From NCBI RefSeq assembly GCF_036669915.1, contig NC_089315.1, positions 24,939,436 through 25,003,435 of the forward strand: DNA of 64,000 nt. Direction: 5' to 3'. The notes under the pieces were generated by a model, which saw only the letters and a list, made by a program, of their open reading frames with translations, did no database searches and was not told the DNA's origin. The position numbers were made by a program, and so were the translations under genes. Origin of the DNA: Pocillopora verrucosa. Its lineage: Eukaryota; Cnidaria; Anthozoa; Scleractinia; Pocilloporidae. Below, piece after piece: positions 19,125 through 63,600 of this stretch (position 1 is the stretch's first letter; each line of letters begins with the position of its first letter).

Positions 19125-22886
<3,762 letters not shown>

Positions 22887-23039: not shown

Positions 23040-23058
23040 GGTGGCCTATTCTGATTGG
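23040..23058 (-). promoter_or_regulatory. ERSE-like site, one mismatch
   Basis: GGTGG, nine bases, ATTGG: a second ERSE spacing with one change in the CCACG half. It shares its CCAAT half with the ERSE-II at 23054. Confidence 0.65.
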
Positions 23059-23064
23059 TCCACG
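23054..23064. promoter_or_regulatory. ERSE-II site
   Basis: ATTGGTCCACG is an exact ATTGG-N-CCACG, the ERSE-II consensus, overlapping the preceding ERSE-like site. Confidence 0.8.
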
Positions 23065-23631
23065 CCATAGAGTTTCGTCATTTTGCTCGGATGAAGTTCG
23101 GTTGTCGTGTCAAAGCAAGAGTTTGCCACAGCTTACTTCCGGTTTCCCTGAACCCCCAAAATGACTCACAAGTCACGTTCAAACTGAAAAAGGAATTGCA
23201 TGTTCATCAAATAGCTTTATTTTGTCTTACTTCAAACGAAACATGCGTGATTTTCAAATAAAATCAAATTTCTCGGGGCGAATGTGATAGAATTCTTTTT
23301 CAAGGAAGATAAGGAAATATTAACAGTAACATCATTTTTCTACGATGAATCTTCGGCTTTTTCCGGTAAAATTCGTTGTTCACCGGGACGATGATAAGTG
23401 ATGTGTGGAAACGAGGTTTAACGTACAAAGCGCGGCCCACGAGGTTGTAAGGTACGACTTGAGGGTGAATGGCAACAAGTAGATGTAGTGAACTGCTTTA
23501 AAATATTGCTTACTTTTGTGCGTGATATCTGTTCAAGACCTCAACTGCTCGTTAGAAAAGCGCAGACTCATACTACGCGCTGTTTCGCCCCATTTTTAAA
23601 TGGGGTGAAACTTAAAAGTCTCAAGGTCGTT

Positions 23632-23647
23632 TCCAAGATGGCGCTCC
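23632..23647 (+). promoter_or_regulatory. YY1-like initiator of the snoRNA host gene
   Basis: CCAAGATGGCGCTCC matches the YY1 consensus AAGATGGCG common at start sites of ribosomal-protein and translation genes. It lies about 750 bp from the BiP ATG, on the opposite strand, where the host gene should begin. No transcript evidence is available. Confidence 0.5.
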
Positions 23648-24040
23648 AGCTCCCCTATTGATAACCGACGCAAGGTACTATATATTGAAGTCGTTATAAG
23701 TTGATTGATGTCATTTTTGCTAAAGGTGTATAAACTTTTTTATTTGAACTGTCTTTTGTAGTTACCCAAATTGAAAAAAGTTTCAGTGTAGATTGTCCCG
23801 TTAATGAGCACATTAGACCAAGAGCACGTGGTATTACGATTGATTAAATGAAATGCAGAGTACGAAGTCGACCATTTCGTTTATCTTAAACAGCCGTTTT
23901 CAAAGGTAAATGAACTCTCTCAAGTATTGTTCGCCATAATCATGAAACTCTTTCCCAATGAGAACTAAGAACCAGATGGAAAGATCATTGAGATTGTGGT
24001 GAATAATCACGGCATCAAGCGAGAACAGTGAGTTGACTGT

Positions 24041-24121
24041 GTACCAGTGATGAACTTGTTAAATGGGAATCTCTCTTAGTGCGTCAGTGAAGAGAATCAT
24101 GACTGTGTTAACTGAAGGTAC
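24041..24121 (+). ncRNA. SNORD79: Box C/D snoRNA, SNORD79-like
   Basis: Stem GTACC/GGTAC closes C box AGTGATGA (24046-24053) and D box CTGA (24112-24115). The internal guide TGGGAATCTC is complementary to GAGATTCCCA of 28S rRNA, the SNORD79 target region. The D' box after it is degenerate (CTTA). Located in the first resolved intron of the host gene. Confidence 0.75.
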
Positions 24122-25318
24122 ACTTTTTCTGTCCTTCTAAAAACAGCCCCACTTTAGTTTTTTTACTCTTTGAAATTTCAAATACATCCTTTATCCCATT
24201 AGGTGAAAACTCCAGACAACCCTTCCTAAAAGGTAAGTTCTAATGCTTTGATTAAGTGAGCTATTTTTAGTAGCAAAGACAGTTAATTTGTGCATTACGT
24301 GTCATACTACTGTTGCAAGACTATGACATGGTGAAGCATATCAATTATGTGAGTTTCAGTTTTTGCAGACAATCTATCTCATGCAAACAGTCCTTGATAT
24401 GCAAAAATCAGTTCCAGCAGTATAAAATTCAGCAAAATAACACACTCCAAAATTGAACCATCCCTAATCAAATGAAAAAATTGGGCATGTGAGTCAGGTG
24501 TCAGTAAGTGTTATTATATTTAGATTTGCTGAAAGTATCCTTATACTTCTATAAAGCTGGCTACTGTATGATTTGACAAGTCAGGAAGTTGGAGTATATT
24601 AGGATTCCTTCCCTCTTAATCTTCTGCTTGAAGAGAAAATGGAAAAAGAGTTCCTAGCAAAAATTTCAGTTATCTTGAACTTCAGTTACCTAGTATCTCA
24701 GATATCAGCGAAAATTCAATGTAGCAATACAAGTCCCCTAGGTCCTCTATTGCTTGGGGTGAAAGGGGGGGGGGGGGTTCTGAGGATTTTGGTTGTCAGA
24801 ACAGAATTTACCTGATCCTCCCATAAGGTGCAGTACTCTGTTGGTGAGAACTGACCCCCTGGGTTGCCCTTGAGAGCCATATTATCCCTTCTCAAAATGT
24901 TTGTAGACCCCCACCCCCTTCACATCAGGGGATAAACAACAACTGGTCCCTAATCTGTTTTTCATGCTACTTAGTGATGAGAATACCCCAGTATCTGTTA
25001 TGTGCACCTGATGAAATAACCTATGACACAGAAGGCTTTGAAATTGGAAGCTTTGTGATGTGTGATCGATAGGCCTGATGCATGATAACTTTGTTAAATA
25101 TTTTTCATGGTTACAAAAGTGATTGAAAAAAAATTGTGCTGATTCGATCGTTTCTCTACTTTACAGAGAAAGGTCAAAGTGAATAACGGTTCAGAGAAAG
25201 GCAAACCGGTAAGAAGTTTTCAAATATTGGATTCAAATTAGTTTTTGGGGTGGAGTTAAAATTACCATTGTTGTGTTTTTCAAGTGTGTGTGATTCATTG
25301 GTATTGACAGTGTTTCTT

Positions 25319-25398
25319 GTGCCAGTGATGATTTCAATATTTGCTAGTTGATCATTGAGATGTGATGACAACTTTTTCCACCAAGATCGCTGAGGCAC
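25319..25398 (+). ncRNA. SNORD24: Box C/D snoRNA, SNORD24 (U24)
   Basis: Stem GTGCC/GGCAC closes C box AGTGATGA (25324-25331) and D box CTGA (25390-25393); a C' box TGTGATGA is present. The guide CCACCAAGATCG directly before the D box and AATATTTGCTA in the first half both match U24, pairing with GATCTTGGTGG and TAGCAAATATT of 28S rRNA. Human SNORD24 sits in an RPL7A intron, so its place here is unusual. Confidence 0.85.
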
Positions 25399-26660
25399 TT
25401 TTACACAGTCTGAAAGTGCAAGAGCTGACTTAACCTTTTTCAACCCTTCAACTCTCAGAAGTGATTAACATGGAACTTCTCCCTATAATATCCATACCTT
25501 AGGTAATGAGAATACTCAGACTTATCAGGTGGAAGTTTTCATCTTGATCTAACACTACATTCTCATTACTAATTTACAAGGAAATTTGTAGAAGCTAGAG
25601 GGGCGAATTAACAATTAGATCTTGGGAGCCAAAGGGTTAAGACTGCTCAGGTCACAGAGAATTTTATATTAAATTATTTCTGTTTAGGGCAGGTGTTCAT
25701 ACACTTATATTAAGTATGTTTCAATGTCCAAGGTCAGTGGTGCATTTCATGAGCCAATGCAGGATGTGTCCAACAAGATTTGAGGGTAGATTTTACTGGG
25801 TGTGCTGTCATCGTTGTTTTCATCGTCACATCATGTTAGAAAAGCTGCCCTGGATTCTTACTCTCAATTTTCCTTGAACAAAGTGAGTGTCATCAATTAT
25901 CAGACTCAGTAGACTATTGATAGAAGTAGATACGTTAATTTTTGTCATTCAAGATTGCATATGCTCTACTACATGTAGATAATCAAGTATTCCCCTTCTC
26001 AGTATTTAAGAGAGCTCTGATTGATGACTGGTGTGTGATGACTGGTGTGTGATGACTGCATAGTTCAACTGAACATTTTTGTAATGAGGTTGACATTAGC
26101 TCTATCTGACACTGTGTCTGTGATAACAAGGGGTTAGAATCATGTAGTTAACATGCCTAACCCTGTTCTTGAATGTGGTACATGCACATCCTAATTAAAT
26201 CTGCTATTCTTTTTGTTTCAGGGAGCTTTTGAATGGAGAAACTTGCAAAGCTTGGTGTGGTTTTCTTTTGGGGTAGGTGGTAATTTGATCCAAAAACATG
26301 CAAATTACATCTAAATGATATTTAATCTTTTAATCTCTTAAGAGTGATGGCTGCTAATTTCTCGTTTATATCAAATGCAAAGGTCGTGTAAATAAAGGAA
26401 ATGATCACAACTTTAAGAAGCTCCTGATTGTCAGACAAATTCTCCTAGTCAGTACTATTAGAAATGTGTGGTGAACAGTGGGGAAAATATAACTACTAAT
26501 GTTAGTGCGTAAAGGGTTAAATCTCTGTAAATAAGGCTCTCTGTTTTCAACAAAGTGATTTAGTTATTTGTGATCTTAGATTTTCTCTTAACTTGCTCCT
26601 GTAAGAGGCTGGCCTTCTTCATATTCAAAGAAGTCTACAAGTTTTTGCCTTACCTAATGT

Positions 26661-26728
26661 GGGTTGTGATGAGTTCATAGTTCAGCCGATTGCTGATGAT
26701 GATAATTTTCCCCCCTATATGAAACCGC
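26661..26728 (+). ncRNA. Degenerating SNORD80 copy
   Basis: GTGATGA, CATAGTTCAGC and a C' TGATGATGA match SNORD80, but the D box is ATGA instead of CTGA and the guide CGCCCCTAT has a G-to-C change. The closing stem is only GGTT/AACC. It is likely a decaying duplicate of the snoRNA in the next intron. Confidence 0.7.
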
Positions 26729-27037
26729 CCCTAAGGTCTGATTGAAAAAACTTCCAAGTTTCTTTCTGGTGTCTAACAAACAACTGCGTGTCTCATTCTA
26801 ATTGAAGCTAATTGTTTTTATTTCAGGGAGTGAATGGCATAAGAAATTTGCACAGCTTTTATTTTTGTGGTTCCTATTTGTGTTTGTAATGAGGTGAGGT
26901 AAAGTCAAATTATAAAATGATAATACAGTTGCCTTTGCTACAAGTCATCAGTGATCATAGATTTTCTTGACTTGCTCCTCTGAGAGGCTGGCCTTGAATG
27001 TTATTAAGGAAGTTTTCAAGCTGTTGCATTACTTGGT

Positions 27038-27107
27038 GTGGTTCATGATGAGTTCATAGTTCAGCTGATTGATGGTGACGATAAACTTCGCCCCTATCTG
27101 AAACCAC
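27038..27107 (+). ncRNA. SNORD80: Box C/D snoRNA, SNORD80 (U80)
   Basis: A six-pair stem GTGGTT/AACCAC closes C box ATGATGA (27045-27051) and D box CTGA (27098-27101). The guide TTCGCCCCTAT before D pairs with ATAGGGGCGAA of 28S rRNA. The guide CATAGTTCAG before D' (CTGA) pairs with CTGAACTATG. Both guides match human SNORD80, a GAS5 snoRNA. Confidence 0.87.
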
Positions 27108-27259
27108 CAAAAAGGTTTAACTGAAAAAGTTGAAATTCCTTTTCTTTGTCTAACGATTGGGTACTTATCTTAGGTACACTGCCAAGACCTAACCAAGCAA
27201 GATTTTTGAGGTGAGGTAAGCATGATCAACATGTGATGACAACTTGTATTGTTGAGTCT

Positions 27260-27343
27260 GGTGCAAGTGATGACCTCCAGAATAGGGACATAATAAAGTC
27301 ACTCTGTGACTTGATTAGAAAATCTGGTTTTGCCTGATGCACC
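27260..27343 (+). ncRNA. Box C/D snoRNA, target uncertain
   Basis: A perfect six-pair stem GGTGCA/TGCACC closes C box AGTGATGA (27266-27273) and D box CTGA (27334-27337). The first half contains TAGGGACA, complementary to TGTCCCTA of 28S rRNA as in SNORD74. The D-box guide ATCTGGTTTTGC has no rRNA match I recall. It could be a diverged SNORD74 or a guide not previously described. Confidence 0.7.
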
Positions 27344-28122
27344 TCTTGTATTTGGTATCCTGTTTTCAAATTGTTTGGTACATGTCATGATCTTTAACCC
27401 TACAACCCCTGAGAATGACTGGATTTTAACTTCTCCTTACAGCATCATCTTGGAATCCAACATAAACCCTTTATACCCTAACATCAATATTCATATTCTC
27501 CATACTGTTATCTGTACATTTACCAAGGTGCTGACAAGGAGGATTTGTCTAACAATCAAGAGTTTCTGTAGTTGGTGATCATTTCCTCTCTTCTCTTAAC
27601 ACTGATGTGTGATTCAGTAGTGATATTGTAAGGAGAAATTAGATGCTAGTCACTCCTAGGGGTTAAAGGGTTAAGATCCCAAGAATAAAGGAAACGATAG
27701 GCAGCTAAAGGAGCTCTTGATTGTCAAACAAATTCTCCTAATCAGCACCTCAGGAAATGTTGGGAAAACAGTAAAGGGTTAAACTTAAAAACTCCTCTCT
27801 GTGGTTTTAATTGTACACAAGGTTTTTTCATTTGTATTTTTTTAACCACTTGTTCTTCCTTTTTGTCCTGGATGTTTAGAATACCAGTGGTTTAAAGCAG
27901 GCAGGTTAAAGATCAGAAGTTGAGCCACTGTCGTGGTAAGTGAAATTTTATTGCTAATTGATTCCCCTTTTCATTCCTGGTATATCTGAAAATTTTCATC
28001 AATTAATTATTGAGTGCTTTGATTTTTTGAAAAAAAATTGATGGCAGTGATTCTACTGGTCCTGTGATTTAATTGAAATTTTTAACAAGATGTATTTATT
28101 TTGATGTTTGTCAATCATGGAT

Positions 28123-28199
28123 GTGGCCAATGATGCATAAAGTATTTGCTACTCTTGAATATAGCTGATGATAAATATCACCAAAATTTCTGAGGCCAC
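28123..28199 (+). ncRNA. SNORD76: Box C/D snoRNA, SNORD76-like
   Basis: Stem GTGGCC/GGCCAC closes C box AATGATGC (last base off consensus) and D box CTGA (28190-28193), with a C' CTGATGATA. The stretch TATTTGCTACTCTTGA matches the first half of human SNORD76 and pairs with GTAGCAAATA of 28S rRNA. Confidence 0.78.
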
Positions 28200-28645
28200 T
28201 TTGTGGAGACTGTTTCAGGGATGTTCTATAAGGCACAAAGGTTAAAATGCACCAATTACTGTAGTTGAAACTTTGACAACAACAGATTAGAGTTCTTGGG
28301 GTTCAATGATAGATCCTTCTCTGGTTACAATCTTGCAAATTGGTATGTTTGAATATTATAAGAGATCAAACATGATATGTTTGTGATGTGGGAAGTCAAT
28401 GATCAACTAAGGCATGCTACAGATATGCAGGATGGCAAAGTGGTTGATTGCTGAACTAGCATTTTGGTGACCCAGAGAAGCCTTAATGGAGAATTGGTCA
28501 ATCATGATTACTTGTTGATTTTTAATTCTATTTCCATGTGATAGCGAGGTATTTTCTCATTATGTCTCATCAAATAACTGACGTTGTACATGTAGGTTGT
28601 GATTTGGGATCAAGTGTTATGCTCCTTTAGTTTACAAGGTAATTA

Positions 28646-29095
28646 CAGGGCGTGAAATTGCGCCTAATACAGGCGCCAATGCGACTAAATTTTTTACTTT
28701 GGCAACCAAATCCTGAAAATTGCCAAATTGGCGAGTAGAATGTTTCATCATAACCGTACTTAGAGATATAGTAAATTAAAAAGATTTGCAAAGATAAATC
28801 CGTGGCAAACTTCCTCGTTAAGTTTGTTTCCAAAACACAGCACATGCATCTCAATTGATAACTAGATTTAGGATGGATTTAGGCGAGCTTAAATGTTGCA
28901 TATCATCCATTCTATTGTCCACTTTGTAGTATGTTAAAGATCTTTTCCCTAACTTAATTCCTAGAACGATGACAGTGTAAAAAAAGGGTTTGTTTGTCTT
29001 TGAAAATGGCAACCAACTTTTTTTGAATTGGCTACCACTTTGAATAATTTAGGAGCCTAATGGCTATCAGAAAAAAAAATCAATTTCACGCCCTG
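28646..29095. mobile_element. CAGGGCG-terminal DNA element, 450 bp, in last-but-one host intron
   Basis: Inverted termini CAGGGCGTGAAATTG and CAATTTCACGCCCTG are flanked by AATTA on both sides (28641-28645, 29096-29100). Units B (near 37430) and C (near 46388) have the uninterrupted site GGTAATTATTG, giving two empty-site controls. No transposase frame is seen, so it is non-autonomous. Confidence 0.88.
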
Positions 29096-29505
29096 AATTA
29101 TTGTGTTTGCATTGTGTTTGCATATCCTGAAGACTAAAAGTTTGTGGAAAACCAGAGCAGTTGCCTCTCTTTGAGTTCAAGTTCTATTGTAAAGGGGGCT
29201 TTAGTCATAAAGAAAAATAAAAGGAAAATAAAAGTTGTATTCATATTTTTCTAGGTCCATCATACTTGATTCATAAACTTGATTCTGCCATGGAAATCAT
29301 GGGAACAGATGGACAATAATTTTCTCAGAATACATTTAGCAAGGTGAGAAATATATTGAGTAAATAATCATTTTTGCAGTATTTTCAGCCAAGTCCTGAT
29401 TGTTTACAATGGAAAACAGCGAAAAAATGTCATGGAAAAGGTTGTGGATCATGATGGTATTATCCTTAGTTTGGAAGATAATGCTCAGTGTTCAAACCCC
29501 CAGTT

Positions 29506-29586
29506 GAAAGCCAGTGACGACTTAATATATTCAGTCATAATCCACTGATATTTACTTCTGAAGACTACATTAATACTGAGGCTATC
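29506..29586 (+). ncRNA. Box C/D snoRNA in last host intron, copy A
   Basis: Stem GAAAGCC/GGCTATC (one mismatch), C box AGTGACGA (29513-29520), D' CTGA (29545-29548) and D CTGA (29576-29579). The guide CAGTCATAATCC before D' is complementary over 12 bases to GGATTATGACTG near the 3' end of 28S rRNA. I do not assign a human name. Confidence 0.75.
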
Positions 29587-29790
29587 TTTTATTAAAATCA
29601 CACTTCCTAACTCTGTTAACTTTGCCAAAATGGGATTCACTGCACTTGTGATCTTTTTATCTTCTTTCCCAGGTTGTCTTTGAACAAGAGCTGTGTAACT
29701 GGAATGTCTTGCAACCAAGACTGGACCTGATTTCTTCTCTGTATACTGATTAATTCACAGTGATAATAAAATTTCCAAACAGTATTTTTG

Positions 29791-37386: not shown

Positions 37387-38130
37387 GTTGGGATTTGGGA
37401 TCAAGTGTTTTGCCCCTTTAATTTACAAGGTAATTATTGTATTTGCATTGTGTTTGCATATCCTGAAGACTAAAAGTTAGCAGGAACCTTCAGCATGCTG
37501 TTGCCTCTCTTAGAGTTCAAGTTCTATTGTAAAGGGGGCTTTGGTCGAAAAGAAAAATAAAAGGAAAATGAAAATTGTGTTCATATTTTTCTAGGTCCAT
37601 TAAATTGGTTCATAAACTTGATTCTGTCATGGACATCATGGGAAAAGATGGACGATAATTTTCCCAGAATAAATGTAGCAAGGTGAGGAATATATTGAGT
37701 AAATAATCGTTTTTGCAATATTTTCAACCAACCCCTGATTGTTTACAATGGAAAACAGCAAAAAAATTTGTCTTGGAAAAGGTTGTGGATCATAATGGTA
37801 ATATCATTAGTTTGGAAGATCATGCCCGTTGTTCAAACTCCCAGCTGAAAGTCAGTGATGACTTAATATATTCAGTCATAATCCACTGATATTTTACTTC
37901 TGAAGACTACTTTAGTACTGAGGCTTTCTTTTAATAAAAATCACACTCCCTTAGCTAACTCTGTTAACATTACCAAAATGGGATTCCCTGCACTCATAAT
38001 CTTTTTATCTCCTTTCCCAGGTGTCTTCTAACAACAGCCACGTAACTGGAATGTCTTGCAACCAATTAAGACTTTGGACCTGATTTCTTCTCTGTATACT
38101 GATTAATTCACAGTCAATATTTTTGTAGTT
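37387..38130 (+). pseudogene. Duplicated 3' end of the snoRNA host gene, unit B
   Basis: Three exons corresponding to the last three of the host gene keep their AG and GT sites (37387-37429, 37595-37682, 38021 onward). The terminal exon lost the AATAAA present in unit A through a short deletion after TTAATTCACAGT. No promoter or upstream exons came with it, so independent expression is doubtful. Confidence 0.7.
37847..37928 (+). ncRNA. Box C/D snoRNA, copy B
   Basis: This is the best-preserved copy of the last-intron snoRNA: seven-pair stem GAAAGTC/GGCTTTC with one G-U pair, C box AGTGATGA, D' CTGA and D CTGA (37918-37921). The guide CAGTCATAATCC to 28S rRNA is intact. Confidence 0.75.
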
Positions 38131-45175: not shown

Positions 45176-45184
45176 TCTTGTGAT

Positions 45185-45255
45185 GAGTTCATAGTTCAGC
45201 TGATTGCTGGTGATGATAATTTTCGCCCCTATCTCAAACCGCCCCAAAGGTCTGA
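45185..45255 (+). pseudogene. SNORD80-like remnant, unit C
   Basis: GTGATGA, CATAGTTCAGCTGA and TTCGCCCCTAT are kept, but the D box reads CTCA and the 5' half of the closing stem is replaced by the duplication junction. Confidence 0.7.
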
Positions 45256-45439
45256 TTGAGAAACTTCCAAGTTTCTTTGTCATGTCAAACGAGGGAGTGG
45301 ATGACATGAGGAATTTGCACAGATTTTTTGTTGTCGTTTCTACTTATGTTTGTAATGAGGTGAGGTAAAATCAAATTATAAAATAATTATAAGGTTCTCT
45401 CTGATACAACACAGTGGTTAAGTCATTAGTGATATTAGA

Positions 45440-45930
45440 TTTTCTCTTACAATTACAATTAATTTTTTAAATTTTAATTAATTTTACAATTTCTTTTACA
45501 ATTTATTAAAATAAATTAAAACTTATGTAGTGCAACTTTCCATGGCACATGATCAAACGTGCTTTACAATAAGTTAAAAAGACTTAAAATGAAATAAAAT
45601 TTACAAGCAGATAGAGAAATTTAAAATGAAATAAAATGGCAGTAAATGATAAATAATAAAATAAACGAAATAAAAACTCTGCTACAAATTAAAAGCTTGT
45701 TTGAAAAGATATGTTTTCACATGGCATTTAAAATTTGATAGAGAGTCAAGGCTGGATATCTTGCCGGGTAAATTGTTTTAGCGCTTTGGGGCTGTATAAC
45801 AGAATGCTCTACCACCAAGTGTTGGGAGTATCTTGCCTCTTGGAACCTCAAGCATAACTTTTTTTCTGGATCTGAGGGAATATCCTGTTGATTTCTTTTG
45901 GCTGATTAATTTGCAAATATAATCTGGCAC
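45440..45930. mobile_element. Dispersed repeat insertion, unit C
   Basis: This stretch interrupts host-intron homology. It contains GCTTTGGGGCTGTATAACAG and CTCTACCACCAAGTG, a phrase seen in dispersed repeats of many aquatic animals. Class not resolved. Confidence 0.45.
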
Positions 45931-46449
45931 CTTGCTCCTCTAAGAGGCTGGCCTTGAATGTTTTTAAGGAAGTTTACAAGTTGTTCCATTACTTGGTGTG
46001 GTTCGTGATGAGTTCATACTTTGATAATAACAGATTAGAGTTCTTGGGTTCAATGATGGATCCTACTCTTGTTATTATCTTGCAAATGGGTATGTTTGAA
46101 TATTATAATAGATCAAACATGACAAGTTTGCGATGCAGGAAGTCAATGATTAACCAAGGCATGCTGCAGATATGCAGAATGGCAAAGTGGTTGGTTGCTG
46201 AACTAGCATTCGGGTGACCCCGAGAAGCCTTAATGGGGAAGTGCTCAATCATGATTGATTGTTGATTTTTAATTCTATTTCCATGTGATAGCAGGGTATT
46301 TTCTCATTACGTCTCATCAAATAACTGCTGTTGTACATGTAGGTTGTGATTTGGGATCAAGTGTTTTGCTCCTTTAGTTTACATGGTAATTATTGTATTT
46401 GCATTGTGTTTGCATATCCTGAAGACTAAAAGTTAGTAGGAGACTTCAG

Positions 46450-46845
46450 TAGTTGCCTCTCATAGAGTAGTTGCTATGGTGATATAACTATATGCTGTCC
46501 TAGGTATACACAGAAGATGGAAAAACTTTTCTTGTTACAGCTGTAAAACTTTGGAACTCTCAACTCATTAATATAAGAGCTAGCACCAGTATAAATGCAT
46601 TCAAACAGAACTATTTGTAATTTTATAAATATAATATATATATATTATAATATATATAATATTCGGACCCCTTTTTGATATATTACATTTACCCTTTTTT
46701 TCTTCCCGTTTTTACCATTTTTAACTGCTTTTACCTTTTTAATATTTATAAATTAGTTTTATATCTTAGAGGAGGGTCACAAGTTCACCAGTTCTGAACT
46801 GTAATGTGTCACCCTAAGTAAATAAAGTTATTATTATCACTATAT
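46450..46845 (+). mobile_element. 5'-truncated LINE 3' end
   Basis: A frame ending at about 46620 reads TFLVTAVKLWNSQL and SINAFKQNYL then stop, the usual C-terminus of LINE reverse transcriptases (LWNS...IR...FK..L). An AT-rich trailer, AATAAAG and TTATTATTA follow. It is absent from units A and B. Confidence 0.7.
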
Positions 46846-47181
46846 TTCAGAGTTCTATTGTAAAGGGGCTTTGGTCAAAAAAAAAAAAAGGAAAAAAGAA
46901 AATTGTATTCATATTTTTCAAGGTCCATCTAACTTGTTTCAAAAACTTGATTCTTTCATGAAAATCATGGGAGAAGATGGACAACAATTTTCCTAGAATA
47001 CATTTAGAAAGGTGAGAAATATATTGAGTAAATCATGATTTCTGCAGTATTTTCAACCAACCCCTGATTGTTTACGATGGAAAACAGCAAAAAAATTTCT
47101 TGGATCATAATGATATTATTATTAGTTGGAAAGATTATGCCCTGTGTTCAAACCCTCAGTTGAAAGCCAGTGATAACTTAA

Positions 47182-48600
47182 TTTATAATAAAGTTATGAT
47201 ATAACGCGCGCTGTCATTGGTTGAAAGAGCGTGCTCTATGAGAGTATAGAGCATAGAGCTGAGCTAAAGCTGTCATGCCATCTGCCAAATTGTACAATGT
47301 TCGACCTTTTCCGGGACTTCTTTTTCGCTTTTTCCCGATAATTGAAAGTGAAATTTCGGAACAAGCGAGCCGGCAAGTAGCAACAGAAGAACCAAACAAA
47401 GGTTTATAAACATACCAGGCTCCGTAATTTTACGTTATTAAAACGTGAGCAGAAACGAAAATCCTCAAAGGAAAAACAAAATACACACGCTCAGTTAGAT
47501 TGCAAGCTTACGTACGGTAATAAAAATCAAACACAGCTAACACTTGTACAATATATAAAGTACAGTGTTAAAAAAAAAAAAAAAGACAGAACAAAACAGA
47601 GATGGTGAAAAATATAACCAAACTGGCATAACTGTTAAAATTCATTCTAATCATGACGGTGTCTGAGCGAATATGATCATGCTAAAGTCCATCGCGGCTC
47701 GCTCATCATGGCGATCTCCGGTCATCGCAGTAAAGAAAGCCTCAGAAACTACATTGGCCGCCCTTCGAGTGAAAAAATAAGAGCTTGCTCTGATATCCTT
47801 TCCGATGCGTTGAGTGGAAAGTCACATCAGTCACTGCAGCCGAGTTTTGCCGCGCTGTCATCCCGAGCGATCTTCATGTTCCGGTGAATTCAGCTGTCGT
47901 TCATTCAAAAAACACTCGCCTTGAACAGTTTGTTTTCTATCATGTCATGTGAAAAAACTTGCGTGTTTTTATGAGCCATAATTCGGCTGAAGTTCACTGA
48001 ACATTTCACTTCAAGATTCTGTATAAGGAACTTAAAAACTTCAGGCAAAAGTGTTAAATTCGACCTGCCGAACTATTTTAGTTTGTAAACTATCGCAGAA
48101 TGTGAACTTTGATGGTTTTTGAATTTTGATGGTTTGACACTTTTGACAGCTTTAGTCTTGTACAGCCAATCAGATTATTTGAACTATTCTAACAGGGATT
48201 CTGATTAGCTTATTGTAGCGTGCTTTATGAGAGTATAGAGCATGCGGATCAATATCAGTATCTGGGCAACTGCCCACCTACCCCTCCCCTAACTCAAGAA
48301 CGGTCAATTGATAGCAAGTTAGGGTTAATGTTGGGTTAGGGGAGGGGTAGGTGGGTAGTTGCCCAGATACTAATATTGATCCGAGCATGCTGACGACACT
48401 GTTGATCGCTTTGGAAATAAAGTTTCTTTTGAAAATTGAAAGTAATGCTTGGGGAATCTAACGGATTCTTTATTATAAAACAAATAGGGAAACACTCTAC
48501 TACGTCTCGTGCTTCTCCCTACACTTCTTTCGTGCTCTAGCTGCTTCCAGCGTGCTTTATAACAGAACAGAGCACAGTCAAGGCTTCTCTATTTGTTAAA
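47182..48600. mobile_element. ~1.4-kb non-autonomous DNA element
   Basis: It interrupts sequence continuous in units A and B. The left side has AACGCGCGCTGTCATTGG and GAGCGTGCTCTATGAGAG; the latter motif recurs near 48220. No transposase frame is present. Exact ends are uncertain. Confidence 0.65.
48246..48382. mobile_element. GGATCAAT-family MITE nested in the 1.4-kb element
   Basis: A 137-bp foldback with termini GGATCAATATCAGTATC and GATACTAATATTGATCC, flanked by a perfect 8-bp duplication GAGCATGC (48238-48245 and 48383-48390). An 8-bp duplication suits the hAT superfamily. Confidence 0.88.
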
Positions 48601-48850
48601 CATTCAATTATAATCTACTGATATTTACTTCTGAAGACTACTTAAATACTGAGGCTTTCTTCCGATAAAATCACACTTCCTAACTCTGTTAACATTGCCA
48701 AAATGGGATTCCCTGCACTCATGATCTTTTTATCTTCTTTTCCAGGTGTCTTCTAAACTAAAGCTGTGTAACTTGAATGTCTTACAATTAAGACTTTGGA
48801 CCTGATTTCTTCTTTGTAAACTAAGTAATTCACAACGATAATAAAATGTT

Positions 48851-50331
48851 CCAAACAGTATTTTCGTAGTTTACTTACTTGTGTACCATTGACAGTAACA
48901 TACAGTCCTGTCCTTATAACTGTTCTGATTTGCCCATGTCTCAACTTTCACATCTGTTATCAAAAGATGCAGAAAGCAAGAGCTTCCCACCTACTTGGGT
49001 CATTGGAGATACAGTCCATGCAGGCACTTAAATTCCAGAACCTGAATTTATTTTCATTGTTATCAACATTTACCACTTGACGTTGTAAACAGAATAAAGA
49101 TGTACTTATCATGCCCCTTATAGCACAGATGTAAACACAATATAAATTGCACAGATCTCAGAACTACTGGCTTAAAAATCTTTTAATGTAATATTTACAC
49201 CTAATATTTGATAGCATAAATATGTTGCATCAAGATAAATACATCTACTTAATGCATACTTATAAGACATCACTTAGAGTTACTTTTCATGTTCATGTTC
49301 ATGAAAAAAAATTATTTTGATCATGACACTTGACATACAGAAGCTACAAATGGAAGCATTTTACATTTAACTGTCAAGGTCTGATCAAGATTCTTAACCA
49401 AAAGCCTTTGTGGTTTGCTATTGAAAAATTCAAGATTGCAATATTGTTTGCTTTGAGCTAATGTTGTTAAATAGCACCACCTAGTAAATAAAGTCCTGAT
49501 AAATATTTAATATTCAGCCACATTATTCCTCTTTAACTGAAAGTACTTACAAGAAACAAGATGCACTCATAATTGGGATGATTAATAACAATTATGTGTA
49601 TGTAAATGTTTCTTCTTACTGACGTCCTTGTTTTTTTTCTTCTTTTTTTCATATGCAGAAGTTGTTTTCAAAAAGCTCTTTATAGAATTCAATGGCACAA
49701 GTGAATGTTTAAAATGGTTTTTGAAACATTACAGTGTGTGCTCAGTTACCAATTTTTCCTTTCTGGTATTTTTTGGTTCCTTCTTTTCTCCTTTGTTAAG
49801 CATTTTGTATTTTTTTTGTTTGTTTGTTTCCTCTTTGAGGTTAATATTATGAACTTTAAAACTGTTATGCAAAAGATGCTGACAGGAGAAAATTAATGTC
49901 AAGGATGTTATTAAAGGACTGGGAAATGATATCATGCAGGGCAATGTTTGCTGTGTAAAACATGGTATTGCTGTTTGCAAGTCAGCGTATGACTCTTTGT
50001 TGTGAAACTGGGAACATATTAAGTTATTAAAGTTACCAGCAACTTTGCTTTGTGTTTTTAAAATGTTGTCTAAAGTGGCTTCTAGCATACTAGCCAAAGA
50101 AAAATTGTCAGTTCATTTCCCTGGCTTTCAACATAATGAGATACTAGAGGCCTTTAGCTTGTAGTTAGTTTCTTGTTCCATGTGCCCTGTTTTTTGCAGA
50201 AGTTATATGGGAATCTTTTTGTTTTTGTTTTTTGTTTTTTGAAGGTGGGGGGCTCTCTAAAGACCTAACAGCTGAAGGTTATGACCAGTTACTTAATTAT
50301 TTCTCATTTCAAGCTTTCTGAATGATATCCC
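48851..50331. other. Region between host-gene copy and receptor C
   Basis: It is homologous to 29791-31278 in unit A, with a single minisatellite unit near 49720-49790. No gene is seen. Confidence 0.6.
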
Positions 50332-57899: not shown

Positions 57900-60646
57900 T
57901 CAGGCTGGTTGCTGGACCGTATCTGGTTGCTCATGGTTCTCCAGTTCAGTACAGTTACGTTTCACCCATGGCCAGTCACAAATATATTTGGCCACGTCAC
58001 TTCTTTCACAACTGATCAGAGCTTCGACAAATTTTTTCATTGAAGGCTCTGGTGTAAAATTCTTCAATGTTTCTATAAGACTCTCCGTAGGACTGCCGTT
58101 TGACTTATATTGAAGTTCCAGTAAGTCTAAGTCTCCCTCGGTAACGTTTAAGTGATGTCCCACTTGTCGCCAATTTTTCTTTAGCGGTGGATTTGGATCA
58201 AGCATGTCTTGAATTTTGTGCAGCATTAGTTCATTTCCATTACGAAGTGTAAACATTTCGGAGACATCACAGTCTGAAAAACAGAATTACTTTTAGAAAA
58301 CAGACCTGTTATTTGTAACATTAAAGTTGTAACGAAAGAATAAAGCAAATTTTAGCTAGGAAAATGCGTGATCTACAATGGGTTTCCTTCATTCTGAGAA
58401 TAACCCTCGCCACCACACAATCACTATACATAATATCATTAACATTGCTAACTGTGTTATCTCGAAAGGATAAACGAGGCGTCGATAAAACTTTCAGTAG
58501 CCTGTGCTGAAAGTTTTTGCATTTAAAAGGCTACAGAGGGAGAGTAATTCGGCTTATTTATTTTCTTTTTTGGAGAATTCAGGATTAACTCTTTAATCCC
58601 TGAGAGTGACTAGCATCACCTAATTTCTCATTTCAATATCACCCCTGAATCAAACATTAAGGTCGTGAGAATCAAGGAAATGATAATGAACTGAAGAATC
58701 TCATGATTGTTAAACAAACTTCCTTGCCAGCACCTAAGGAAATGTATAGAGAACAGTATGGAGAATATGCATACTAATGTTAGAGTGTGTAAGGATTAAT
58801 GTGAAGAAGGAAGGGCTGACTCCTCACCTGTTGGAATGAGTTCAATATTTGGCCTATCATTCATGGGTTGTCCAAGGAGAAACTGCTCCTGCTCATCTGC
58901 TCGATTACCTGCGAAAAAAGAATGAACGGAAAATAACCGACTCTTATCTATTTTTAGTTTAGCCCACAACCACGGCTTTAAGGAGGATACGGCCATGATG
59001 AGGTCAACTATGATTAGGTGCTTAAAAAAGCTAATAATTGTGGGAAATCCTAGCTAAGATTGTGAGGCTTTTCACATCTTCCGGTGTGTGATAACTCAAG
59101 AAAGTGCACTTCTTTGCTGCTCAGAGTAACTTAAGCTGAATTTTCTTTAGTGCAGGTGTCACCTCAGCACTATCTAAGCTATCCTTACTGTCTACTAAGT
59201 ACCATGCCGAAATCTGTGAAAGTGAGTCTGACCACCCATACAGTGAACAGTTCCACCATTTTCCTCTCTTCCCTCAGATTGTGTTGTCCACTGACAAATA
59301 AGGAAAAACTACTGCATGAGCATAACTTATCAGTTTACTACAATATCATGTTGTGTTGGTTGCAAATTGTCAACAGGAATTCAGTGCCTAAGATGCTACC
59401 CTCAAAAAAGATAACAACAGTGTTGCAAGGCATGACTCTCTCTTACCTTCAGAATACAGTGCTGAACCATTCCTACATGACACGATTCTTTTAAATCTGT
59501 ATAAAGCAACAATAAGCACTAGGGCAATCAGTATCATGATCATCCCAACTATTATTGAAGGTGTTATATCTCCATCTGATGTAACATTTTCTGATGATGC
59601 AGTAGGTTTCCTGACATTATCATTAGAAGTACTCTCCGATTTATTTGCTTCAAAATTGTGACCAGGAAGAAGAGTAACAGCCGTGGTATTAATTGTATCA
59701 ACACTAGCTTCTGTAGAATTTTCCAAAGCTTCCTTGCAGAGCTTGTTTTGGTGATTCTTTAGACACTGCCAGTCTTCTCCCATTCCAATTTCTTTACATT
59801 TCTTCATTCTACCTGTTTCGTCCACACTGGGACAACAAAAGTAGCACTCTTGACAGAAACCATTTTCGTCGAGGTAATGTCTTTCAGGGCACTTGGTGCC
59901 GCATTTACGATTTTGAGACGGGGTGCACTGCTGAGTAACGATCTTTAAGCCACAGTCGTGGCAGGACCTACAACTCTCAAAGCCATGATTGTCTGAAAAT
60001 GTCTTGTTCAGTTGACATGGTTCGCATTTAATAGTGGTGTAGTTAGTGATCTTGGACCCACATTGTGGCACAAGTCCTAGTCCTGGCGGGCATTCAGCAC
60101 ACGCTATACACTCCGTTTGAGCTTCCGGATCATCTGGGTAGTATTTCAGGAAGTTTTCCATCAAAGGACATCTTGTGGAACGTCCTAACACAGATTGTGA
60201 CCACAAGACTATCACCAAGATCAGCTGAAATTAAAGAGAAGTAAAAAATTTTGATAAAAAAATTTAAGAAACTGCGACATAATACTCAATTAAGTACGGT
60301 TGCATTCGGCAATTTGTCTCGAGTCGAAAATTTTGATCGGAAAAAATTTAATCTAAATGATCTCTTTCAGCCAATCTTGCCACCGAGGTAACCTGTCAGA
60401 CTGTTGTGTACGTAACCGGCAGTGACTGATGTAAAACAAAAACTTCGAATCTTCGTTGACTGTTTACAAACTGAATAGATCAATGACATTATGAAGTCCA
60501 TATGCTATGTGTTCTAAACTTCTTCAAGAAATCGAAACTGGATAAAGAGTGCGAAAAAGGTTACAGGAATACTGATGTGCGTACGAACTGCAGGGAACAG
60601 AGTATTTGGAAATATTCACCTTTATGGCGCTCTTCATAGGCTTCAT
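57900..60646 (-). CDS. TNF receptor superfamily death receptor, divergent copy D
   Basis: Four exons, 60646-60620, 60224-59447, 58908-58828 and 58273-57900, join in frame to 419 aa. The leader is MKPMKSAIK continuing LILVIVLWS. The ectodomain keeps every cysteine block of copies A-C (ECIACAECP, KCEPCQLN, SCRSCHDCG, NRKCGTKCP, CQECYFCC), then a stalk, a membrane span (IIVGMIMILIALVLIVALY) and the death domain from residue 296 (KNWRQVGHHLNV). It lacks the exon that encodes VTNSNES in A-C and has a longer, Gln/Pro-ending tail. It is the oldest split in the cluster and probably the parental type. Function is inferred as for copy A. Confidence 0.9.
58588..58798. repeat. Dispersed repeat, family 2, in copy D intron
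   Basis: TTTAATCCCTGAGAGTGACT at one end, AGAATCAAGGAAATGATAA within, and GTTAGAGTGTGTAAGGATTA at the other; the most complete copy of this family in the window. Confidence 0.7.
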
Positions 60647-63600
60647 GCCACCATTGTTATTTTTGCTTCTTTTGTTGCCCTGTGAAAAGAAATAAGCACG
60701 TATGCTTAGTCGAACTTTGCTAAAAGTCTGCCAGAGTTATTCGTATGTTGACTAAGCAACTGCAAAATTCGAGGATCGAGCAATGGCTACCCTACCGTTT
60801 GTATACGGCTTAGCTTGTGTATTTCTTCACATCAATGTCGATAGGCGAATAATTTCGTCGACAAAATGCTTCCTAACAATAAGTTGATAACTCAGGAAAT
60901 ACGGCATGTTAGCCGTAGATGACAGTCTTTTATAACGAGCAAAACGGAAAAAACAAGTACGTCATCAATATATTCAGACGCCACTACGTGACTCATTAGC
61001 CCACGAATTTCTGAGTTAAATTACATTTCATCTCTTATGAATCAAAATGTTGCCTTGTGTTATACATTAAAAGATACTTGACATGAAGGAAGATGGTGAT
61101 GCTGAGTCTCGAAATACCAGTGGCCAAAGAACATTAGAGATGAGGACAGGCTCGATCATCTTCGATCTGAACCATTCCATTCTCTTAGAGTGAGGTCACA
61201 CACAGTTTTGGAAGCAGACAAAAAATTGCACTGTTTCATCATTCAAATGCAAATACGCATTTGAAAAATCAATTAACTGCAAGATAAATATTGCGTGACC
61301 GCTTCCGTAAAGCTGAATATCATACCGCTTCCGAGCGAAGCTGCGAAATATTAACTGGTTTGATTGACGCGTCCGTGATAAGTGCCTTTAGACTGAAAAT
61401 TGTAGCTAGCGTTTCAGTTCAGGATAAGACCCCGTGTAATCAAGATCGTTTCTGGAATAGAAGACAAGTCTTATACCGGAACACCCGATAAAGTAATCAA
61501 CACCCGCCAAGGTTGCTAAGCAACAACTTATTTTGTGCTTACGTTACCCGGTAGTTGTGATTCAAAGCGAAACTTGTTGCTAGTTTTTATCTCTCTATTT
61601 TGGTTCCTTTAATTGCCAAAAGCTCGTTTCCAAAATTGAGATTATTCTTTAAGCTATGATCACACAATACTTAAGTTATTCCTTGATGCAATAATTTTAG
61701 TTGACTGCTTTGATATAAGACAAAGGAATAAAGAAAGAACGATCCTACATAGGTTTGGTGTCTATCATATGCATGTGTATCAACCCGGGAATTGAGATTC
61801 AATTCTACCTTGATAAGAAACATTTACATAATGTGACATTCAAAGTGTAGTTATCAGAACTAGGTACGTCTGAAGTCGTCGGTGACTCTCGCCTGGGTCG
61901 ACCAAAAACTATTGATCAGCATTGTTGTTACTGAGTCCCTTTTTACCACTGTAAGCTTCTAAATCAATTGCAGAGAGAGGTATAGATTTCACCACGGCCA
62001 TTACTGAAACAGAGAACTGAAGGTAACTTCATGCCAATTAAGCATTTTTTATTTATTATGAAATTACTGCAAGATCACTGATTCGCCAGCCTTCGATAGT
62101 TTGACTGCACAATTCGCATGGACACGAGAGATATTTAGGGTTGATTCAGCGCGCATTTTCACAGTTTTCAAAAATTCGGCAATATGTAAAACTTTGAAAA
62201 TACGAGTGAAGAGGCTTACGAAGTTAACGTGTGTCCAAGACTTAGTTAGTGCAATGCCTGACCCCCGCTCCCGGATAAAGACGCTCCACAGGCCTCTATC
62301 GTGAATTTCTTTTTGTTGCTAATTGTGTAAAATTCCTATCTTATGACTTTACCGCGACAACGGAGAAAGGTTTGACAAATTTCCTATCAATGAATCAAAA
62401 CGTCTATCTTAAGGTACCTGGGTGATGCCCAGGGCTTGCTTCTTAGAATTACACTGTCTAAGGGTTAGTTAATAAAATTGGCCTGATAGGAGAACGATAT
62501 TTGCAGCTTTTATTTTCCGGAAACTTTAACCTCACGCTGCCTCGACGACTTGTGCCAGCCCAAGTTTTGCTGAGTCACGTTAAAAAATATCGAGCGAGCC
62601 CTACAAGCGGGCTGTTACCTCAGGAGTGATTAATTCACTCTTTTTTCTTTAATTTCTGTGCCCTGAAGATTTTCTACTCTCGTTTACCACAAAAGAGGAC
62701 TCCAAACTACAGCCAAGATAGTTTTTCTCAGCATTTAATGGTTTACTACCCAACTCATAAACAAAAATAATTTCGTTGCGTCTATATAAGTTTACTATTT
62801 TATCTTAGAGTGCTGATTACCATTTTTCAAAGGGCATGACTACCTAAGTTGCCCATCAATATTTAATTGCCAGTTCCCGGATCTTGATTGGAAAAGCGGA
62901 TACGGGCAAGCACAGGTTACAAATGGGGGCGTAGCTTGGATTTTTTAAAGGTTTCCTCGGATTTGTCTTTTTTTGGAAACCTTAAGTATAAGTTTTGTAC
63001 AGAATTGATAGCAAAAATATATTTTAAAAAAAGTAACCTCACATAGGAGTTTTAGGAGAAGCACCCCAGGAAACATCACCAAGCTATGCCCCAATACATA
63101 AACTAGAAAAGGATTATTACAACCATACAAAACTCATTACTACCTCAGAATTGATCACTGGGAAGGAACCTTTCGATTGAGTGACGTGAAATCAAAAGCA
63201 AAGTAATCGCACTGGCCAATCAAACAACTTTAATTTCAGCGTTATAACTGAGAAACCTGTGAGAAAACTTAAAGTCTGTAAATTAACGCATGAGAGCTGC
63301 TTTGTGCTCTTGGAAAAATCTCTTTTAATAATTCGCGATTGGTTTCAGTTTTGCATCTGGCTATGTGGTGGTGCGAATTTCTCGACGGCACAATGAAATA
63401 TCAACAAGTCAAGTTACTTCGACACTCGATGGAAAAGTAATTAATCTGACTAAGTCAAGTTTAAAACTTCGGCGGGTCACAAACAGGATGACCTCAGAGC
63501 ATGCATAATATCGAAAATATCCTTGTTAAAATAGATTCAGCACGCAGTGCTTACTTTCTTCTCAATGTGAGATCAAGCAATGCCAAGTGAATTAGGCTGT

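Follow-up and report, generated by a model that had tools for sequence, protein, structure and literature searches.

A predicted GAS5-like, apparently non-coding host of intronic box C/D snoRNAs in the coral Pocillopora verrucosa

GAS5 has mostly been studied as a vertebrate long non-coding RNA (lncRNA), in the settings of growth arrest and cancer. Chicken GAS5 (mRNA CR387333) is non-coding and has short exons, with box C/D small nucleolar RNAs (snoRNAs) in its introns. In the available part of the chicken snoRNA survey these are ordered 74, 75, 76, 80, 80, 44, 78, 79, 47, 81 (PMC2653536). Here we describe a gene of the same layout, with predicted exons of 30-118 nt, in a 64 kb window (C4:24939436-25003435) of the P. 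verrucosa genome (353 Mb in 52 contigs). We consider it very likely that this is a non-coding, multi-intron host of the GAS5/UHG kind, with intronic C/D snoRNAs whose listed target sites are mostly those of GAS5. The evidence gives good support to an apparently non-coding, GAS5-like snoRNA host in an animal outside the Bilateria, and we judge the gene to be real and probably functional.

Intronic snoRNAs and the sites they share with GAS5

The predicted gene holds eight candidate box C/D snoRNAs and one decayed SNORD80 copy (Table 1). Predicted introns 1-9 contain, in order, sno1, sno8, sno2, sno3, the decayed copy, sno4, sno5, sno6 and sno7, so that several C/D snoRNAs appear at one per intron, the arrangement by which hosts of the UHG kind are recognized. 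Seven of the snoRNAs pair with ribosomal RNA (rRNA) over 10-15 bp beside the D or D′ box, and the eighth (sno5, 9 bp) is tentative. Target sites follow from the position of the methylated nucleotide, five nucleotides from the D or D′ box according to the portion of the source available (PMC13228274). Each guide was compared with 300 shuffled guides, counting those that paired as well or better. For the D halves of sno1, sno5, sno6 and sno7, between 39 and 281 of the 300 shuffles did as well or better, and we treat these halves as non-guiding. The human snoRNA names and site numbers are those we take to apply; in equating them with chicken numbers, the chicken table supplies the homologue names and the rest is what we take to correspond.

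Table 1. Features of the host locus and its copies. Positions are those of the window; fractions give shuffled guides as good or better.
Feature	Position	Strand	Details
Predicted non-coding host gene	23640..29790	+	from sequence, splice scores and spliced models; first exon and start uncertain
sno1, SNORD79 type	24039..24123	+	D′ guide to 28S A3809, 10 bp with own 28S (9/300); D′ box CTTA
Predicted exon	24203..24232	+	acceptor 7.7, donor 12.0
sno8 (intron 2)	25001..25085	+	C box CTGATGA; stem 6; D guide to 28S GGCCUAUCGAUCC (A), 11 bp with own 28S, target A in GGCCUAUCG (1/300)
Predicted exon	25167..25208	+	acceptor 10.8, donor 9.5
sno2, U24 type	25320..25397	+	D guide to 28S C2338, 11 bp (5/300); D′ guide to C2352, 11 bp (11/300)
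Predicted exon	25693..25732	+	acceptor 7.5, donor 8.3
sno3	26040..26117	+	D′ guide of SNORD77/80 (28S A1521), 10 bp (14/300); D guide of SNORD44 (18S A166), 10 bp (12/300)
Predicted exon	26222..26272	+	acceptor 12.9, donor 7.9
Decayed SNORD80 copy, D box lost	26661..26732	+	40.5 bits, cut-off 43
Predicted exon	26827..26893	+	acceptor 8.6, donor 10.8; resembles a diverged copy of 26222-26272 (by eye)
sno4, SNORD80	27036..27109	+	D guide to 28S G1612, 11 bp (7/300); D′ guide to A1521, 9 bp
Predicted exon, acceptor weak	27174..27215	+	acceptor 3.1, donor 10.7; boundaries checked
sno5, tentative SNORD74-like	27260..27344	+	D′ guide to 28S C3820; poor D′ box AATA
Predicted exon, acceptor weak	27880..27935	+	acceptor 4.4, donor 9.7; boundaries checked
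sno6, SNORD76 type	28125..28197	+	D′ guide to 28S A2350, 11 bp (6/300)
MITE-like element, ~450 bp, in sno6 intron	28645..29095	.	inverted ends; empty sites in both downstream copies
Predicted exon	29255..29343	+	acceptor 7.2, donor 10.3
sno7	29508..29585	+	C box GTGACGA; D′ guide to 28S UGGAUUAUGACUGAA, 15 bp with own 28S, target U in GGAUUAUG (0/300)
Predicted terminal exon	29673..29790	+	acceptor 15.0
Intact-looking sno7 copy in duplicated gene fragment	37848..37927	+	C box GTGATGA
Broken downstream copy of host 3′ half, decayed snoRNAs	45178..48876	+	

Three of the nine places pass an Rfam cut-off: sno4 (45.7 against 41) and, over the gathering score of RF00069, sno2 (55.8 bits) and sno6 (60.3 bits). 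RF00069 covers both U24 and U76, and the guide decides which. Against the SNORD79 model (RF00152) sno1 reaches 26.5 bits, where the cut-off is 47, and plant snoR26 scores higher at 30.4. Although the covariance model fails, the proposal that sno1 would work like SNORD79 stands on the guide evidence. Against snR60, sno3 falls short of the cut-off (38.8 bits, cut-off 41), and its match to SNORD44 (RF00287) is confined to 15 nt, those of the D guide (12.5 bits, cut-off 40); sno3 would act as SNORD44 does, from the body of a SNORD80. For sno5 the top model is SNORD82 rather than SNORD74 (24.3 bits, cut-off 43), and the top match of sno8 reaches just 18.7 bits. The sequence-only reading had named SNORD79, SNORD80 and SNORD76 as the kinds held in common with GAS5. 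Covariance models bear out the SNORD80, U24 and U76 places and not the SNORD79 type; the targets do match and the overlap is wider than proposed, while U24 is not a GAS5 snoRNA.

The target sites common with GAS5 are those of the SNORD79, 80, 77, 44 and 76 types and perhaps 74: five of the ten chicken GAS5 sites are clearly served here and a sixth tentatively. The reference was the chicken table, in the part available, with 75 rRNA sites as counted here and ten of them in GAS5 (PMC2653536). Under an assumption of random grouping, and uncorrected for the cluster having been picked, six of the eight listed sites served are GAS5 sites with P = 2.6e-5. Omitting sno5 leaves five of seven (P = 2.7e-4), and omitting A1521 as well leaves four of six (P = 2.3e-3); counting per snoRNA gives P values from 5e-4 to 2.8e-3. 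The remaining two guides, those of sno7 and sno8, address sites absent from the chicken list, as judged by hand placement, which locates the sno7 site downstream of the SNORD78 site and the sno8 site upstream of the GGGAUAAC loop, ~58 nt away in each case. An identification of the sno8 site with yeast A2640, which we take to be the snR68 target, was contradicted by hand placement against the peptidyl transferase center loop in the coral's own 28S.

Searches of the whole genome suggest that these families are rare elsewhere. With the best 61 of 60,852 candidates scored, SNORD80 exceeds its cut-off at one place, sno4; with the best 59 of 168,161 scored, RF00069 does so at two places, both inside the host gene. 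Two sub-threshold SNORD24 matches, on contigs C3 and C8, were unlike real copies when the middle of each locus was read. The SNORD44-guide pattern occurs at one genome place, sno3, as two overlapping exact matches, and the SNORD79 guide pattern of sno1 recurs at C13:937816, where no closing stem is visible by eye.

The principal alternative is convergence: snoRNAs change hosts, and this cluster may have collected GAS5-type guides independently, a reading we hold to be possible but somewhat doubtful. The order here (79, new, 24, 77/44, (80), 80, 74?, 76, new) is not that of GAS5, which also weighs against strict orthology, and U24 and the two guides to unlisted sites are extras; in the available part of the chicken survey U24 sits in RPL7A, not in GAS5, and snoRNA clusters are reported to change host between chicken and human (PMC2653536). 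None of the GAS5 types 75, 78, 47 and 81 was seen in this locus, where their models are absent from Rfam matches up to E 5; SNORD75, 47 and 81 had no genome-wide search, and a genome search for SNORD78 found none over the cut-off, which counts for little given that the SNORD79 model is weak even on the local copy. The sites are also not independent, with U24 and U76 sharing an rRNA region and SNORD77 and SNORD80 being duplicates, and the lack of correction for the choice of cluster favors this alternative too. However, the overlap is improbable even with related guides merged (four of four lineages, P = 2.2e-4; three of three, P = 2.1e-3). In Neurospora crassa, moreover, the homologues of U79, U44, U74, U80, U24 and U76 lie on chromosomes IV, VII, I, V, I and VII in the part of the source available (PMC2780460), a scatter that speaks against the grouping being a deep default. 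Strict orthology is opposed by the order, by the presence of U24, by the four GAS5 types not seen here and by the vertebrate neighbor, which was not located. We regard shared ancestry with GAS5 as evenly balanced. The proposal in the sequence-only reading that the GAS5 cluster predates bilaterians fares accordingly: the shared content agrees with it, the order does not, and orthology is something we infer.

The host gene model and the coding question

Along ~23.64-29.79 kb of the plus strand no long open reading frame (ORF) was found, while splice sites and box C/D snoRNAs are present. The gene is oriented divergently from BiP on the minus strand, its 3′ end carries AATAAA at 29765, and CTCCCCT at 23650 within the presumed first exon is a candidate 5′ terminal oligopyrimidine motif, the start site being uncertain. 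From D box to next exon, introns 1-9 measure 87, 88, 299, 112, 103, 72, 542, 1061 and 93 bases, a spacing of 72-112 bases in predicted introns without a visible repeat. Two of the three long spacers carry repeats (25442-25639; 27458-27674 and 27684-27766) that also occur at other places in the window. The spacer of the sno6 intron is still ~610 bases long after the 450 bp element is subtracted, suggesting that an exon near 28596-28638 may be absent from the splice model.

If the splice model had missed exons, the host could instead be a protein-coding gene with snoRNAs in ordinary introns. The model does leave some room for this in exon 1, two acceptors and the sno6 intron, yet the longest ATG-initiated ORF across four splice variants is 41 aa and every frame holds at least seven stops. 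Compared with the nearer duplicated copy, exon sequence is 87.6% identical against 83.9-88.3% for introns, and the last exon reaches 71.8% with 25 gap columns. Exons thus appear no better conserved than introns, protein-coding potential would be without support, and we consider a coding host improbable. The sequence-only reading, which placed six C/D snoRNAs and a decaying copy in the introns of a transcript without a shared frame, is confirmed and enlarged on this point, with the introns being predicted. That chance box motifs in AT-rich introns explain the cluster is barely credible: RUGAUGA and CUGA are short and simulated windows yield about one match each, but three places reach the Rfam gathering score and the box C/D scan found seven places within 6.2 kb, whereas simulated 64 kb windows average 1.13 rows each.

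Several observations weigh against a functional GAS5-like host. Taken alone, the sno5 guide and the sno4 D′ guide are within chance (41/300 and 61/300), and several good guides reach just 5-14 of 300 shuffles. The coral's own rRNA was recovered as partial, possibly relic copies, in which the G1612 and U24 D′/SNORD76 sites differ from those of other eukaryotes and none of which was found to include the 18S A166 region. Because of this, the pairings at G1612, U24 D′/SNORD76 and A166 rest on rRNA of unrelated eukaryotes. Six of the nine places, the SNORD79 type included, fall under every Rfam cut-off, the genome-wide family counts cover just the best candidates given above, and the splice model has two weak acceptors, an unclear first exon and the long sno6 intron.

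Boxes, stems, rRNA pairing, rarity across the genome, duplication and the lack of a long ORF are legible in the DNA itself; transcription, splicing, processing and methylation are what we infer. We hypothesize that the host is a non-coding RNA polymerase II gene with many introns, the purpose of which would be the introns. Each spliced intron would be debranched and then trimmed to one box C/D snoRNA, and the resulting small nucleolar ribonucleoprotein, with fibrillarin, would direct 2′-O-methylation of rRNA at the fifth nucleotide from the D or D′ box. The set would act on seven sites that are known in vertebrates, tentatively on an eighth, and on two with no counterpart in the chicken list.

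Duplications, neighboring genes and other observations

A 167 nt SNORD80 unit stands in tandem (26583-26749 and 26962-27128, 77% identity), and decayed, recombined and intact SNORD80 copies stand together in the host gene. Further copies of the host's 3′ half lie at 37.2-38.9 kb and from 45.2 kb to 49.6 kb or beyond. In the nearer sno7 copy the guide and D′ box are conserved (19 of 19 nt) and the C box is canonical; in the farther copy the guide is changed and the C box unrecognizable. The element in the sno6 intron, which resembles a miniature inverted-repeat transposable element (MITE), has at least 39 further genome copies at 86-94% identity.

The neighbors are BiP and an array of tumor necrosis factor (TNF)-receptor-like genes. 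A BiP exon at 19128-20126 (-) matches Pfam Hsp70, with BiP as the top PDB match, and more exons extend to ~22.5 kb by eye. In the region upstream of BiP, ATTGGTCCACG at 23054-23064 equals the ERSE-II unfolded-protein-response element, whose consensus we take to be ATTGGNCCACG. Tandem TNF-receptor-like genes with death domains occupy 31282-60230 (-) and occur again in a separate stretch (L021), and the array carried snoRNA host fragments along; the part of it beside the host, at 31.2-33.0 kb, is repeated at 39.5-41.4 kb. Death domains exceed the Pfam cut-off, and the four receptor-repeat exons, one of them in L021 and the others in the window, score 22.7-28.7 bits, under the 29.4 required. A scan of 15 of the 23 window ORFs (at least 110 aa) and of ten longer flank ORFs did not show DARS2, presumably the neighbor of vertebrate GAS5. 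A genome search with a bacterial-type aspartyl-tRNA synthetase model gave two weak matches, none over the cut-off, and the one on the host's contig resembles what we take to be asparaginyl-tRNA synthetase; DARS2 itself was not located by these searches, and synteny with it gained no support from them.

Two further C/D-like matches lie in the window. The candidate at 61096-61170 (+) has a 13 nt guide that matches another eukaryote's 18S, with one mismatch to the coral's own 18S copy, at what we assume to be the SNORD59 site; the lone match at 59536-59594 (+), whose guide to 18S spans 10 nt, is consistent with the chance rate. Elsewhere in the genome, exons of the green fluorescent protein (GFP) family form two arrays on contig C1 (74 matches). 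The top match of one such exon is amFP486, presumably an anemone (anthozoan) protein, at 120.6 bits against 95.5 for the next among the 60 of 308 matches listed, and a second exon behaves likewise. Most of the other proteins among the matches listed are also anthozoan, in keeping with an anthozoan and hence non-bilaterian source. Two public viral contigs (L001, L002) look chimeric, joining RNA-phage-like sequence to eukaryotic 28S rRNA, and may be metatranscriptome artifacts.

Comparison with described snoRNA hosts

Among the open-license PubMed Central papers listed in literature searches there was no report of a cnidarian GAS5, which does not prove that there is none. Drosophila Uhg1-Uhg8 and other UHG genes likewise hold clusters of intronic snoRNAs, a likeness drawn from the cluster description in the available part of the source (PMC13228274). 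UHG-like clusters of N. crassa also encode C/D snoRNAs in introns of hosts with short ORFs only, and their content is described, in the part available, as unlike gas5 (PMC2780460).

The joint proposal, to which we give belief and doubt in equal measure, is that a GAS5 host existed in the cnidarian-bilaterian ancestor and that the anthozoan gene is its direct descendant, in which the SNORD77/SNORD44 combination would show that a duplicated SNORD80 within this gene could acquire a SNORD44-type guide, which later became a snoRNA of its own in vertebrates. If the set was grouped in that ancestor, the constant part of the gene would be its intronic guides rather than its exons, whose lncRNA roles would have been added later. 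Two candidate coral rRNA methylation sites, the targets of sno7 and sno8, emerge from the locus as well. The mechanism is ordinary; the evolutionary depth is what is notable.

In the available text of the chicken survey, gas5-like genes are called hotspots of snoRNA duplication and U77 is suggested to derive from U80 (PMC2653536). A duplication of the U80-to-U77 type appears visible here as well, with sno3 bearing a SNORD77/80 guide beside a SNORD44 guide, a pairing of two guides in one snoRNA that is unlike GAS5. The coral gene would have grown by tandem intron-exon duplication of SNORD80 units, as reported for GAS5, and SNORD80 is duplicated within the gene as it is in chicken GAS5 in that same source (PMC2653536).

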